NCBI GenBank assembly: GCA_009746045.1
Contig: RPFO01000080.1
Location: 5,317,556-5,381,555, forward strand
Reading direction: 5' to 3'
Length of the DNA stretch: 64,000 nt
Source: Mesostigma viride
Taxonomy: Eukaryota; Streptophyta; Mesostigmatophyceae; Mesostigmatales; Mesostigmataceae
Shown: piece after piece, positions 6,827-38,832 of the stretch
Position numbering within the stretch: position 1 is the stretch's first letter
Layout: each line of letters opens with the position of its first letter
Program-made: the position numbers and the translations under genes
Notes under the pieces: generated by a model
What the model saw: the letters and a program-made list of their open reading frames with translations, nothing else
What the model was told of the DNA's origin: nothing
The model's database searches: none

Positions 6827-9800
6827 ATGTCGCCCGCGCCCGCGGCTATGAACAAAATGCAGGAGGCAACCGGCATCCCATGTCTACGCGAAGCTGGCGA
6901 TGAACAGCTTAAAACTCACCGCAAGATTTGGATATCGGACCTTTTGACCGCGAGAGCTTCACCAGACGGCGCTTTTTTCTTCGGCCAGCCCGCGTTCAAA
7001 TTTAAGTCCGTCAGGTACGTATACTTTACACTGTAACGTGCCTCGAGTGAGAATTCTCACTTCTCATTTAGTTATCGCCAATCCTCCGATTGACGCGCAC
7101 GTGGCATGGCGCATTAACGATAGCCGCGCAGAATTTTTTATCCATGTCCTTGCACGAAGCCCGTTCTGCCAGCATGCCAGCGTTCCTGGCCGCCCCCAGC
7201 TCTAGATATAGGCTTGGGCATAAATTATAGACTAGATCCCTATTAGCTGTATCGACTTGAATGTCAATACTTGAATGTAATCACTGGTGACTGTGCGCCT
7301 TTTTCTCATTCGGAAGCAGGGCAGCGGCACTTAACGCACGAAAGCTACCCGCTAGCGTTGTCATGACATCGGCAACATGATAATGTCAAGACGGTCACGA
7401 GCTCCTATTCGCGGATCACATTCCCGTCCCCAGATCGTGTGCGAAATGGGCGTCCGCGTACCGGCCGCGCAGTCAAGTACATGGTTCGCACAAAAACGGA
7501 AACTCACCCTGCTCTGTGCCAATGGTGATTGTCTTCATGTCCCTGGTCATGATTGACTTCATGTCCCAGGATCCTTGGCACCGTACTCTTCGACACGAGG
7601 AGCCGGAGAGCTGCATCCTTGGCGGGAATCGAGCCAGGCCCGGCTAACAGCATTATCATTGGTACGCGGTGAAATCAACATTCCTGCCACACCAGGGGCA
7701 GGCGGTCATACAAAATTCGACCAAGTCGCAGCCACCTCTGCTAGCATGGCCGATAGATAGGTTCACTTTGATCTAACTTGTGCCAAGACTTTTTTCGAAA
7801 TCATTTGAACTTTGCTTGATTGACCGGTTTCACCGGCAGATGACTCCACCGGTGTGCTGGCGGTGGACCTCGGCGAGAGCCTCGTGGAGCAAGCGGGTGA
7901 CCGCGATTGCGACAATGACGTCACCGACGGCGCCAGCGCCTGGATTCTGTCGAAGCTCGGCGGCAGCAAAAAATTCTCCTCCTTTTCCTCGCCTGGCCTG
8001 GGCGACACCCCCTCGGGGCATGTAAAGGAGGGGATCCAGGGACCTGGTCAGTTCCGTCACAGGGAGAGTGGGAGTGGCGGTCTGCGCCATTGTTGGGATG
8101 TGCTGCGTAACGGCTGGCAGGGCGAGTTCCTCGGCTGCCTGGAGGAGGTTTGCAACGCGCAGGGGGATACGGAGAGACGGCTGCGCTGCACAGGGTAAGC
8201 AAGGAGGTGGTGGGGTCGGGTTTCTGTTGAAACCAGGGGGGGGGGAGTTTGGGGGGTTGGGGGGGGGGGAAAGGGGGTTGGGGGGTTGGGGGGGGCGAAC
8301 CCTGCGAAGCGGTAGGTTGGAACTGAGTGTGTCGCTGAGACAACCAGCGCAGGCCTTATTATTGTGGTATAGCGACCAGCGTACCCATGAGACAATCAGC
8401 GCAGGCCAGAAATCTGGAGAATCCGGACCATGGTAGTTAGCATTGGGACTGAGTGTAAGTTCACCCCGTGCAGGTACCACTGTACGGTGTCTGTGCAATG
8501 ACCACTGTAGCATGCAAAGGGGTTGCCTCGCGAGGTACGGTACACCCATGTCCATACTGCGGTCCATTTGTTGTGTCGTAGTCAAGCCGCAAATAGCAAA
8601 TCGAATGGGGCCAACCGGTGCGCAGGAAAGCGCGAAAACTCAGTGTAGCTCCAACTGGTGTCGCCGCAAATAGCAAATCGAATGGGGCCAACCGGTGCGC
8701 AGGAAAGCGCGAAAACTCAGTGTAGCTCCAACTGGTGTCGAGCTAGGATACCTGGCATAATTTCTGCGGCTATAGCGGTCTCCTGCTCCAAAGGCATCTC
8801 AAACTATCGCCCTAACTGCAGAAAAACTCTTGACTGGAGAATGGCGCATATGCCTAGATGAATACAGTACACGACTACAATCACGTTACTGTACCAAAAT
8901 ATAGTACGTTTGGTCCCATTTGTAATTTTTTCGAAGTTTATTTCATTTTGAATTATGTTTTGTCCTAACTCTTCTATGTTCTTTTGTATAGCCCAGTAAA
9001 GGTCATGCGATACCCGCGATTTCGTAGGCTGACATCCCCTGTTGTCATGGTCTTGTTTTGCTGGTCATGGTCTTGCCCCATGACCCTGCGTTCACCCTTG
9101 CCCTTTGCAGCTTCCAGATGCGCTTGGACACCGCGTTTGAGATTGTCCGGTGGTTTGAGATGATGCAGCTGTACAAGGTGGGTTTTATGATTGGTCATGA
9201 GGATGTATGTGATGAGTACCCACGAGACAACCAGCGCAGGCATGGCATGACTATGCTATAGTGACCATGGTGTCCATGAGACACCCAGCGCAGGCTTGAC
9301 TCTACTATACTATAGTGACCATGGTGTCCATGAGACAGCCAGCGCAGGCTTGACTCTACTATACTATAGTGACTATGGTGTCCGTGAGACAGCCAGCGCA
9401 GGCTTGACCCTACTACACTAAAGTGATCATGGTGTCCGTGAGACAGCCAGCGCAGTATGTGTGCGAGTGGTACTGTTGCGAGGATGTAGCTATACAAGGT
9501 ACCTGTGGGCTATTATTTGTCCCCCACCCCCAGAATCGAGTGTTTAGGGTATCTAACGTGTGAGGGATGCCTCATGTCTTTCTGCCTTGTGTCACATACA
9601 GCCCGTTTTCTTCTTGCTTGTTTCTTTTGTCCCATGTTTGTGATTCAAAGGACTAAAAACTCCCCCTCTGTCCCTCCCCTCCTATTCCTACTTCTGGCCT
9701 ATCTCCTATTCCATAGTGCCTATTCCATAATCCTATTCCAAATATCCGGCCATTCTACTATTCCATAATACTCCCTACCTGATCCCTATGTCTGGGCCTT

Positions 9801-37100: not shown

Positions 37101-38832
37101 CCCCCCCACCCCCCCCCCCCCCCCGCACGCAGGTACTACAATTTCGGGGGCCGGGGCGGCGTGCTCATCCATCGGAGGGGCGGTGGTGCGGGGCGGTCCC
37201 TATCAGGCTCAGGTGGCCTGGGCCGTCTTTCTGGCAGCCGCGGTGGTGGCGGCGGCGAGCTAGGCTCGTCGGTTGATGACGAGATTCTGGCGGTGCGCAT
37301 GCAGATGGGCTTCATTGACGAGCTGCTCCACGAGCACCGGCTGTCGCATGGGGGCGCGGCGGTGACAGGTGGCGGTGCCGCGTGGATGTCGCCTCAGGGG
37401 CAGGTGAGGGGGAGAGTGATTGAACCGGTTGCATAAACTAAATTAAAGTAAAGAACTAGATCATGGTTGGGGCGTGTGTGGTGGCGGTGCTGTCGCTTTG
37501 GGTGTGGTCCTCTTCATGACAGGCAGGGGTCTCCTGTCCCCGTTGGACGTGTGTTTGGTGCTGCGTTCACTTCCTCTCTTTCTGCTCTCTTTTTGTTTTT
37601 TCTCTTATTTATCCCATAGTTTGGCCCCTGCATCCCCATGCATAGACCCATACACGCCCACCCCCACCCCCACCCCCACCCCCACCCCCACCCCCACCCC
37701 CACCTCCTCCTCCCCGGCTGATAGAAACCGGCAATATTCACATCTGTGTGTTTTTTTCCTTTTCCTTTTCCTTTTCTTTTTGTCCATTCACGGGCTCATG
37801 ATCTATCAACCCCCCGGCTCATCGTCGTCGACAACCTCACATTCTCTACTCTTGCTCTTCTCTGTTTCCCTATATTTATTCCTTATCTCTATTTACCGTC
37901 TCTCTATTCCCTATATCACATCTGTTGTTCTTGCGGCGTATCGGTGTGGACACCTTCGCCTCCCCTGCTCCTGTCTTTTTACTCTTCCTTTTCCCCTTTT
38001 CCCATTAGTAATTTGACCCCCCCGGTCGGATGCTGACAACGTCACCTTCTCTCTTCTGGTTCCCCGTTTGTTGTTTCCCTCCTTGACATGTTTTGTCACA
38101 CCCCTGGCTTGTCGACATGGACAACCTCACGTGCTCACCTTCTCTACTCATGTCTCTACTTCTCACCCGTGTCCCATCTCCCTTCTGCTGTTTCTGCAGC
38201 TTATCGACGTCGACAGTCTCACGTACGAAGAGATGCTGCAGCGCTTCGGGACTGGCCACGCCGCGCCGCCCCCCACCAACGCGGCCGTGCTCGGGGAAAT
38301 ACCTTGCTGGCGCTACCGACCCAAGGGGGGTGCCAACGCCGAGTCACCAGCAGGCCCTTCCTCTTCTTCCTCTACTGCTGCTGTTGCTGCTGGTGCCGCT
38401 GGCGGTGCGTGGTCGGGGAACTGCGAGGGAGCCAATGGGACAGAAGCAAATAAAAGCAAGGAAGACAAGGGCATGGCAGGCGAGCTGGGCAGGATCCAGG
38501 GAAACGGACGAGCCAACGGGGGGGGGCTCATAAGTGGGGAGGTGGACGCCTACCCACCCAGTGCCCACACAGCAGAGGCCTCTTCATGTGACGATGACAG
38601 TCGCCACTCGGAGTTCTCCTCTCACAAGTGCATCATCTGCCTGCATGACTTCGAGGTCGGGGAGTGGCTGCGCTCGCTGCCCGCGTGCCTGCACACGTTC
38701 CACCGCTCCTGCATCGACACTTGGCTGGGGGAGCACCAGGGGATTTGCCCCGTGTGCCGTACGCCGGTCACTACCGCGACGCCGGCGTCGCCCGCGGGGT
38801 CTGCAACCCGTGCCGCCTCGCTGGCGGCTTAG
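34164..38832 (+). CDS. RanBP2-zinc-finger / glycine-zipper / RING-H2 protein (NIP1-like E3 ligase)
   Basis: Four exons join in phase: 34164-34548, 35700-35952, 37133-37403, 38200-38832 (513 residues). Domains: RanBP2-type zinc finger at 8-27 (W8, C10, C13, N17, C24, C27), which in other proteins binds ubiquitin or RNA; small/glycine-rich helical hairpin at 129-180 ([20 protein letters not shown], then [13 protein letters not shown]), typical of the membrane-associated N-terminus of plant NIP1/ATL25-27 proteins; [13 protein letters not shown] linker (exon 3); [11 protein letters not shown] motif (about 310-320); RING-H2 at 447-489 (C447, C450, C466, H468, H471, C474, C486, C489). The RING should recruit an E2 and ubiquitinate unknown targets, probably at a plastid or other membrane. 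Start: first ATG, 9 bases into the open frame. Plant NIP1 proteins I know lack the RanBP2 finger, so this is an unusual architecture. Confidence 0.85.
34549..35699 (+). other. Intron 1 of the RING gene
   Basis: AT-richer intron with no repeat arrays. Coding frames run past both splice sites, but phase and family homology support splicing at AATTGCAG|GTGATT and GGCCCACAG|GCGCGG. Confidence 0.6.
35943..36232 (+). repeat. Repeats derived from RING exon 2 donor
   Basis: The true donor context (GGGTGAGTGCTCGATGATAC) is echoed at 36171 (GGGTGAGTGCTTGTGACTCC), followed in both by GTGGGAA(C)TGGGAATGGAAGTA. Between them are two further 68-bp units with GGAAGTACGGATATAGTGTC. Confidence 0.75.
36690..36985 (+). 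repeat. 28-30 bp minisatellite (CTATACCTATCTATAATCTA)
   Basis: About ten units in RING intron 2, in a strongly AT-rich context. Confidence 0.9.
37087..37124 (+). repeat. Poly-C polypyrimidine tract at splice acceptor
   Basis: A nearly pure C run ending 9 bases before the exon 3 acceptor, possibly serving as its polypyrimidine tract. Confidence 0.8.
37647..37705 (+). repeat. (CCCCCA)n tract
   Basis: Nine or ten CCCCCA units in RING intron 3. Confidence 0.95.
37812..38231 (+). repeat. Copies of RING exon 4 acceptor edge
   Basis: The true exon start (CAGCTTATCGACGTCGACAG, 38197) is echoed three times in intron 3: 37816 (GGCTCATCGTCGTCGACAAC), 38024 (GGTCGGATGCTGACAACGTC) and 38105 (GGCTTGTCGACATGGACAAC). 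Each is followed by CTCAC and a CTTCTCTACT phrase. The AG of the acceptor is lost in the copies. Confidence 0.8.

Follow-up and report, generated by a model that had tools for sequence, protein, structure and literature searches.

In the 64-kb window analyzed here (a stretch of 64,000 nucleotides of Mesostigma viride contig RPFO01000080.1), the ends of exons recur as decayed copies in the introns that adjoin them, in three genes: OSCP1, a RING finger gene, and a putative STN1-like gene. We kept 20 credible copies, at 10 of 29 boundaries (28 splice junctions and one stop codon), each lying in the intron next to its boundary or in the 3' flank. They are probably the products of tandem duplications spanning exon-intron junctions, typically in units of about 40 to 130 bp, that were mostly neutral, have since decayed, and are best visible where a conserved exon anchors them. 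The initial annotation of the window had proposed that short tandem duplications span splice junctions and that one edge stays functional, and this is still the best reading; it claimed copies at 13 edges, although its own list gives 14 (nine in OSCP1, two in the RING gene, and three in STN1), and the copies are real, but at fewer boundaries than it stated.

The evidence comes from two alignment tests applied to gene models comprising 17 exons, 10 in OSCP1 (prefixed O), four in the RING gene (R), and three in the STN1-like gene (S). In the first test, each of the 28 junctions contributed 30 exonic bases for alignment to the neighboring intron (up to 700 bp), with equal stretches of all other introns serving as the null; seven junctions scored at least 11 and above every other intron (the donors of O3, O5, O6, and S2 and the acceptors of O4, O12, and R4), two further junctions topped all other introns at lower scores (the O3 acceptor at 10.5 and the O4 donor at 10), and for 11 of the 28 no more than 5% of null stretches reached the junction's score. 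In the second test, 24 exonic and 12 intronic bases were aligned to the whole adjacent intron, and matches of at least 11 were listed for all 29 boundaries. Twelve boundaries exceeded their own null maximum, a comparison that sets 500-base null stretches against a whole-intron search and so favors weak matches such as that of the O4 donor (13 versus 11). Two of the 12 were dropped, the O7 donor (score, 11.5) because the matched junction lacks GT and the R2 donor because its match holds just two exonic bases, and a weak third match to the O5 donor (11.0) was left uncounted. The nine splice junctions retained comprise six donors and three acceptors, with 10 to 24 exonic bases included in the matches. 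Two to five copies with fairly regular spacing are found at the donors of O3 and O5 and the acceptors of O4, O12, and R4, with one copy at each of the remaining four junctions; 15 of the 20 copy spacings measure 43 to 124 bp (typically 40 to 130 bp in the initial annotation). At several arrays, the alignments of the units run on into intron sequence, and the edge at the stop codon, where there is no splice site, is copied as well. Exon numbering differs from that of the initial annotation in the second half of OSCP1, and not every edge that it listed can be mapped onto ours. Of the copies that it reported, those at a splice edge of exon 4 in STN1 and, as repeats with a real exonic component, those at RING exon 2 were not confirmed.

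OSCP1 lies on the minus strand, where it opens with the start codon at 33207 and runs to 20063 or beyond, and all ten modeled exons share a single open frame. Its identity is secured by a match to the Pfam family Oscp1 (PF10188; E = 2.5e-63) over positions 1 to 173 of the 173-position profile, which is covered completely with the copies skipped. The clearest array lies downstream of O3 (31025..31084), whose donor edge at 31025 is followed at 57, 138, 208, 290, and 735 bp by five copies: 30956..30985 (score, 22; 22 of 22 bases matched), 30875..30904 (score, 24; 25 of 26), 30805..30834 (score, 21; 23 of 25), 30723..30752 (score, 18; 22 of 26), and 30278..30307 (21 of 21; repeat family D10), the first four listed with GT kept. 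Both edges of O4 (29503..29574) are copied. Its acceptor edge at 29574 recurs at 29667..29702 (score, 26; 29 of 32) and 29758..29793 (score, 16, versus a null maximum of 15; 23 of 30), with AG kept in each, and its donor edge at 29503 recurs at 29124..29153 (score, 13, versus a null maximum of 11), the weakest boundary counted. An O4-like piece adjoining the fifth O3 copy was rejected, its score of 12 falling below the null maximum of 15. The donor edge of O5 (27289..27348; edge at 27289) has copies at 27209..27238 (score, 19; 20 of 21) and 27134..27163 (score, 20; 25 of 30), and that of O6 (25995..26027; edge at 25995) has one at 25864..25893 (score, 18; 24 of 30), which is exon-like and was skipped in the coding model. 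An extra exon considered at 25.85 to 25.91 kb was dropped, since it looks like the end of O6 and the model without it, the only one scored, spans the full Oscp1 profile.

Whereas O3 to O6 fall within the Oscp1 domain, exons O8, O9, and O12 lie beyond it and were placed by splice consensus and reading frame; there may be additional exons between O9 and O12. The donor edge of O9 (21364..21576; edge at 21364) is copied at 21309..21338 (score, 15, versus a null maximum of 11), and the acceptor edge of O12 (20063..20149; edge at 20149) is copied three times as family D9, at 20216..20251 (score, 25; AG lost), 20311..20346 (score, 22; AG lost), and 20435..20470 (score, 18; AG present). An unbiased search for repeats in the OSCP1 region recovered families at the edges of O3 (D8, D10, and D13), O12 (D9), O4 (D14), and O5 (D16), and it also listed intron-internal families, for example, D5, D6, D7, and D17. 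The OSCP1 introns also hold very long micro- and minisatellites: a 4-bp unit repeated about 108 times and then another unit repeated about 176 times at 27426-28543, 34.5 copies of an 8-bp unit at 24294-24569, two adjoining triplet arrays at 25570-25831, and 23.5 copies of an 11-bp unit at 26320-26578.

The RING gene, on the plus strand, encodes a RING finger in R4 (38200..38832; Pfam zf-RING_2, E = 5e-11), and its splice sites were placed by consensus. The R4 acceptor edge at 38200 has copies at 38096..38131 (score, 15), 37925..37960 (score, 13, versus a null maximum of 11.5), and 37806..37841 (score, 16), all with AG lost. Exon R1 shows a weak match to a RanBP zinc ribbon (Pfam E = 0.029); R1 and R2 are out of frame in the model, so the positions of the R1 donor and the R2 acceptor are uncertain. 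The initial annotation's names for these two genes hold, but its third, STN1, found no family or structure match: the three-exon C-terminal model hit no Pfam family at an E value of 0.1 and a single, unrelated PDB entry at 0.5. We retain STN1-like as a putative label for this plus-strand model, whose 5' exons lie outside it. The donor edge of S2 (9111..9177; edge at 9177), an exon without a Pfam or meaningful PDB match, is copied at 9475..9510 (score, 17; 21 of 25), and the stop-codon edge of the last exon, S4 (11192..11251, as given by the gene model), is copied at 11753..11788 (score, 15, versus a null maximum of 10.5). Minisatellites stand between edge and decayed copy at both sites, one of 4.4 copies of a 54-bp unit (9220-9455) past S2 and one of 19.4 copies of a 25-bp unit (11255-11739) past the stop codon, as if an early edge duplication had later seeded a higher-copy array; the suggestion in the initial annotation that edge copies could seed minisatellites thus gains some support at these two sites.

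We suggest that each event would begin with a tandem duplication straddling an exon-intron junction or stop codon. With the copy on the intron side, the exon would stay intact, the first donor or the last acceptor would continue to be used, and the protein would be unchanged; as the initial annotation noted, donor edges are copied into the downstream intron and acceptor edges into the upstream intron, though this is the sole placement that spares the exon. The copy would then drift as intron sequence while the exon original was held by selection, and because that original is fixed, whereas both copies of an intronic duplicate change, a copied exon end would be recognizable for longer than an intron-internal duplicate. 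Recurrent events would build small arrays and lengthen introns. The mutational origin may have been slippage, unequal exchange, or fill-in repair. The authentic splice sites presumably stay in use, and the copies are presumably not spliced, for which the full Oscp1 profile recovered with copies skipped and the in-frame stops that follow all donors with copies give indirect support.

Duplication is not confined to exon edges. With short-period arrays masked, 13.2% of 1,672 intron-internal 30-base windows had a copy scoring at least 13 within 700 bp on one side, compared with 0.24% for distant stretches; the corresponding rates were 7.8% (n = 1,326) in the left and 3.2% (n = 1,934) in the right noncoding flank and 1.0% (n = 498) in long open reading frames. 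Under the same search, 6 of 32 exonic edges, including start and stop edges, had a copy. The initial annotation had named as fatal to its idea an outcome in which edge copies were no commoner than copies of intron-internal windows, and within this window the answer depends on the masking. We permuted windows within the same introns (500-bp search; 500 permutations). With short-period arrays masked and only exonic bases used, 6 of 26 edges had a copy against 2.9 expected (P = 0.052), and adding 10 intronic bases gave 8 of 25 against 2.6, a count reached in none of the 500 permutations. With all arrays found by Tandem Repeats Finder (TRF) masked, 6 of 25 edges (exonic bases only) and 8 of 25 (10 intronic bases) had a copy, against 1.2 expected in each case, and again no permutation reached either count. 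Exon edges are therefore enriched in copies, by a factor that varies with masking and with the counting of splice-adjacent bases.

How much of this enrichment follows from the conservation of exons was estimated with a simple simulation in which introns underwent random tandem duplications of 40 to 130 bp, drift, and deletions while exons were conserved. Several rates and settings were tried, and results are quoted for a rate of 0.006, which came closest to the intron-internal rate. The final version was run like for like with the permutation (500 bp) with splice-adjacent bases held fixed, and it supersedes earlier binomial tests in which 700-bp counts were compared with 500-bp simulations (P = 0.007 to 0.47). 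Frozen exons alone raised the simulated edge-to-internal ratio to 1.2 to 1.5 unmasked and to 1.5 to 2.1 with TRF arrays masked (scores of 13 to 15). For exonic bases with short-period masking, the simulated internal rate of 0.123 was close to that of the permutation (0.112), and the simulated edge rate of 0.160 implied 3.8 to 4.1 edges against the 6 of 26 observed (P = 0.23 directly and 0.17 after scaling to the internal rate observed). The simulation also yields identities resembling those of the copies: over the 16 exonic bases, intron bases 1 to 6, and intron bases 7 to 22, respectively, 19 observed copies averaged 0.80, 0.75, and 0.55 and simulated copies averaged 0.76, 0.80, and 0.63, counted in a fixed frame (a free-end-gap version, with a background of 0.71, was discarded).

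Several results nonetheless tell against a purely neutral account. With TRF arrays masked and exonic bases only, the simulated internal rate (0.056; observed, 0.047) and edge rate (0.094) predict 2.0 to 2.3 edges at a score of 13 against 6 of 25 found (P = 0.025 directly and 0.011 scaled), and at a score of 15 the expectation falls to 1.5 to 1.9 edges (P = 0.003 to 0.009). When 10 intronic bases are included, 8 of 25 edges are found against 2.0 to 2.4 expected with TRF masking (simulated edge rate, 0.097; P = 0.002 directly and 0.0006 scaled) and against 3.5 to 4.2 without it (simulated edge rate, 0.169; P = 0.048 and 0.018). The masked excess persists with the splice-adjacent bases fixed in the simulation, and a lower rate of 0.004 gives similar or smaller P values for it. 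The like-for-like rerun with these bases fixed in fact raised the masked excess, and our confidence in a purely neutral reading was lowered accordingly. The fifth O3 copy is also a poor fit to simple tandem duplication, since its intronic flank, unlike those of the nearer copies, has almost no homology past the donor; it may represent a separate short copying event, and with 21 of 21 bases matched at 735 bp it limits the decay with distance described in the initial annotation to a loose trend. Neutral duplication with frozen exons accounts for much of the pattern, and a residual excess of old, nonarray edge copies remains, which may stem from a genuine preference for edges, from weaknesses of the model, or from the choice of a window because the pattern had been seen in it.

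The foremost alternative is that duplication favors exon edges or that edge copies are retained for longer, for example, because structures linked to transcription or splicing make junctions prone to breakage. The TRF-masked counts of 6 and 8 of 25 edges, against about 2 under the neutral model, speak for such a preference, but the short-period-masked exonic count is compatible with neutrality, a single gene supplies 18 of the 28 junctions in a sample of one window and three genes, and the pattern was spotted ahead of any test, so that any excess is inflated. As the principal explanation we consider it possible but rather unlikely, although some preference for exon edges may act in addition to neutral duplication. 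In its broader form, the exon-intron junctions of this lineage would be genuine hotspots where short tandem duplications arise or persist beyond the level set by general intron duplication and exon conservation, with acceptor copies disabled and donor copies tolerated, and junction-spanning duplication would be one of the main ways in which introns lengthen outside lancelets; this is a tentative proposal that we doubt. A practical consequence is that, before edges are called special, counts of junction copies should be compared with the level of intron-internal duplication under the frozen-exon correction; here the correction explains the exonic-edge rate before array masking but only part of the excess after it, and if the masked excess held genome-wide, it would bear on intron lengthening and on shifts of splice sites.

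A second alternative is that the copies were selected as alternative or decoy splice sites. All 11 donor copies retain GT, the exonic part is slightly more similar to the exon than in the simulation (0.80 versus 0.76), and of the three acceptor copies with AG, one, the O4 copy at 29781, opens an in-frame extension of 207 bases; of the other two, one would shift the frame and one would introduce three in-frame stops. However, AG is lost in five of the eight acceptor copies, and use of any donor copy would bring an in-frame stop after 5 to 28 codons. The contrast between donors and acceptors in GT or AG retention (Fisher P = 0.005) is nominal, being post hoc and drawn from nonindependent copies whose detection used intronic bases and so favored a kept GT. 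Selection of this kind is improbable.

Chance similarity or an assembly artifact is very improbable. Seventeen of the 29 boundaries had no listed match (at least 11) above the null in the second test, as chance would lead one to expect, but the best matches at the 10 kept boundaries (13 to 26) exceed all their null stretches and refute chance there, the O4 donor (13 versus 11) perhaps excepted, in agreement with the initial annotation; moreover, the copies vary among themselves and diverge from the exon, as duplicated reads would not. Rogers-type intron birth, in which an AG-GT proto-splice site is tandemly duplicated and the copies are relics of the intron's origin, would likewise place sequence resembling exons within introns and has been documented in other cases, in the portions of the reports available (PMC2891723 and PMC4974935), but it predicts the end of the upstream exon just before the acceptor, whereas the 11 counted donor-edge copies lie 43 to 735 bp after the donor and none lies at the far end of the whole adjacent introns searched, so that we can hardly credit it.

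A Pfam search covering all three plus-strand frames of 7000-36992 (stops taken as X) gave no confident gene, only weak matches to DUF445 (E = 0.0099) and a RanBP zinc ribbon (E = 0.89); OSCP1 is made up of short exons and is encoded on the minus strand. Tandem repeats are abundant in the window, a stretch of eukaryotic DNA with spliced genes (57 TRF rows). Viral-contig scans returned no relatives, and a further scan gave two loci with one motif match apiece. About 80 near-perfect copies of the 6-bp unit ATTACG occupy 17277-17753, between the STN1-like gene and OSCP1, and one 12-bp tandem unit occurs at two of the positions 56667-56708, 56808-56847, and 52486-52522, with its reverse complement at the third. 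A 563-amino-acid open reading frame on the minus strand (45175-46863) carries a NUMOD3 motif (Pfam E = 1.1e-9). Open-frame fragments at 410-820 and 13225-14058 (minus strand) and at 56790-57197 and 57388-58116 (plus strand) resemble one retroelement family by eye; the two that were scanned (13228-14058 and 57388-58113) had no Pfam match.

The closest known counterparts are the mirages of lancelets, a name given to tandem duplications spanning exon boundaries in the Adh3 and globin genes (PMC3087553), which our literature search, reaching few subscription papers, met only in lancelets. As set out in the available part of that report, mirages occur at both 5' and 3' boundaries in units of 10 to 72 bp (Adh3) and 150 to 160 bp (globins), AG or GT is present in many of the copies though not in all, and regular splicing is reported to be unaffected. 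The Mesostigma copies likewise span the boundary and involve donors and acceptors alike, and the Adh3 and globin unit sizes bracket most of those found here. They differ from the globin gene BflGb6, for which the same source gives units that are 81 to 100% identical and vary in number between haplotypes, in being more decayed (an average identity of 0.80 over 16 exonic bases) and in affecting several boundaries of one gene. In lancelet PGBD5, imperfect 60-bp and 108-bp repeats overlap splice sites and were likened by the authors to mirages, with a troponin C mirage also cited (accessible text of PMC3902484); the copies described here share with them the form of imperfect, low-copy-number tandem repeats that adjoin the splice sites of a conserved gene, but they occupy nine splice junctions in three genes, as opposed to two arrays in a single gene of the lancelet. 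Intron gain by tandem duplication of coding sequence, as far as the accessible sections of PMC2891723 and PMC4974935 describe it, similarly involves short tandem duplications with splice signals, but it makes a new intron, whereas here existing introns acquire copies of their own edges. The structures in the Mesostigma window thus appear to resemble lancelet mirages in a more decayed form and would represent an already-known kind of repeat, present at several junctions within a single window.

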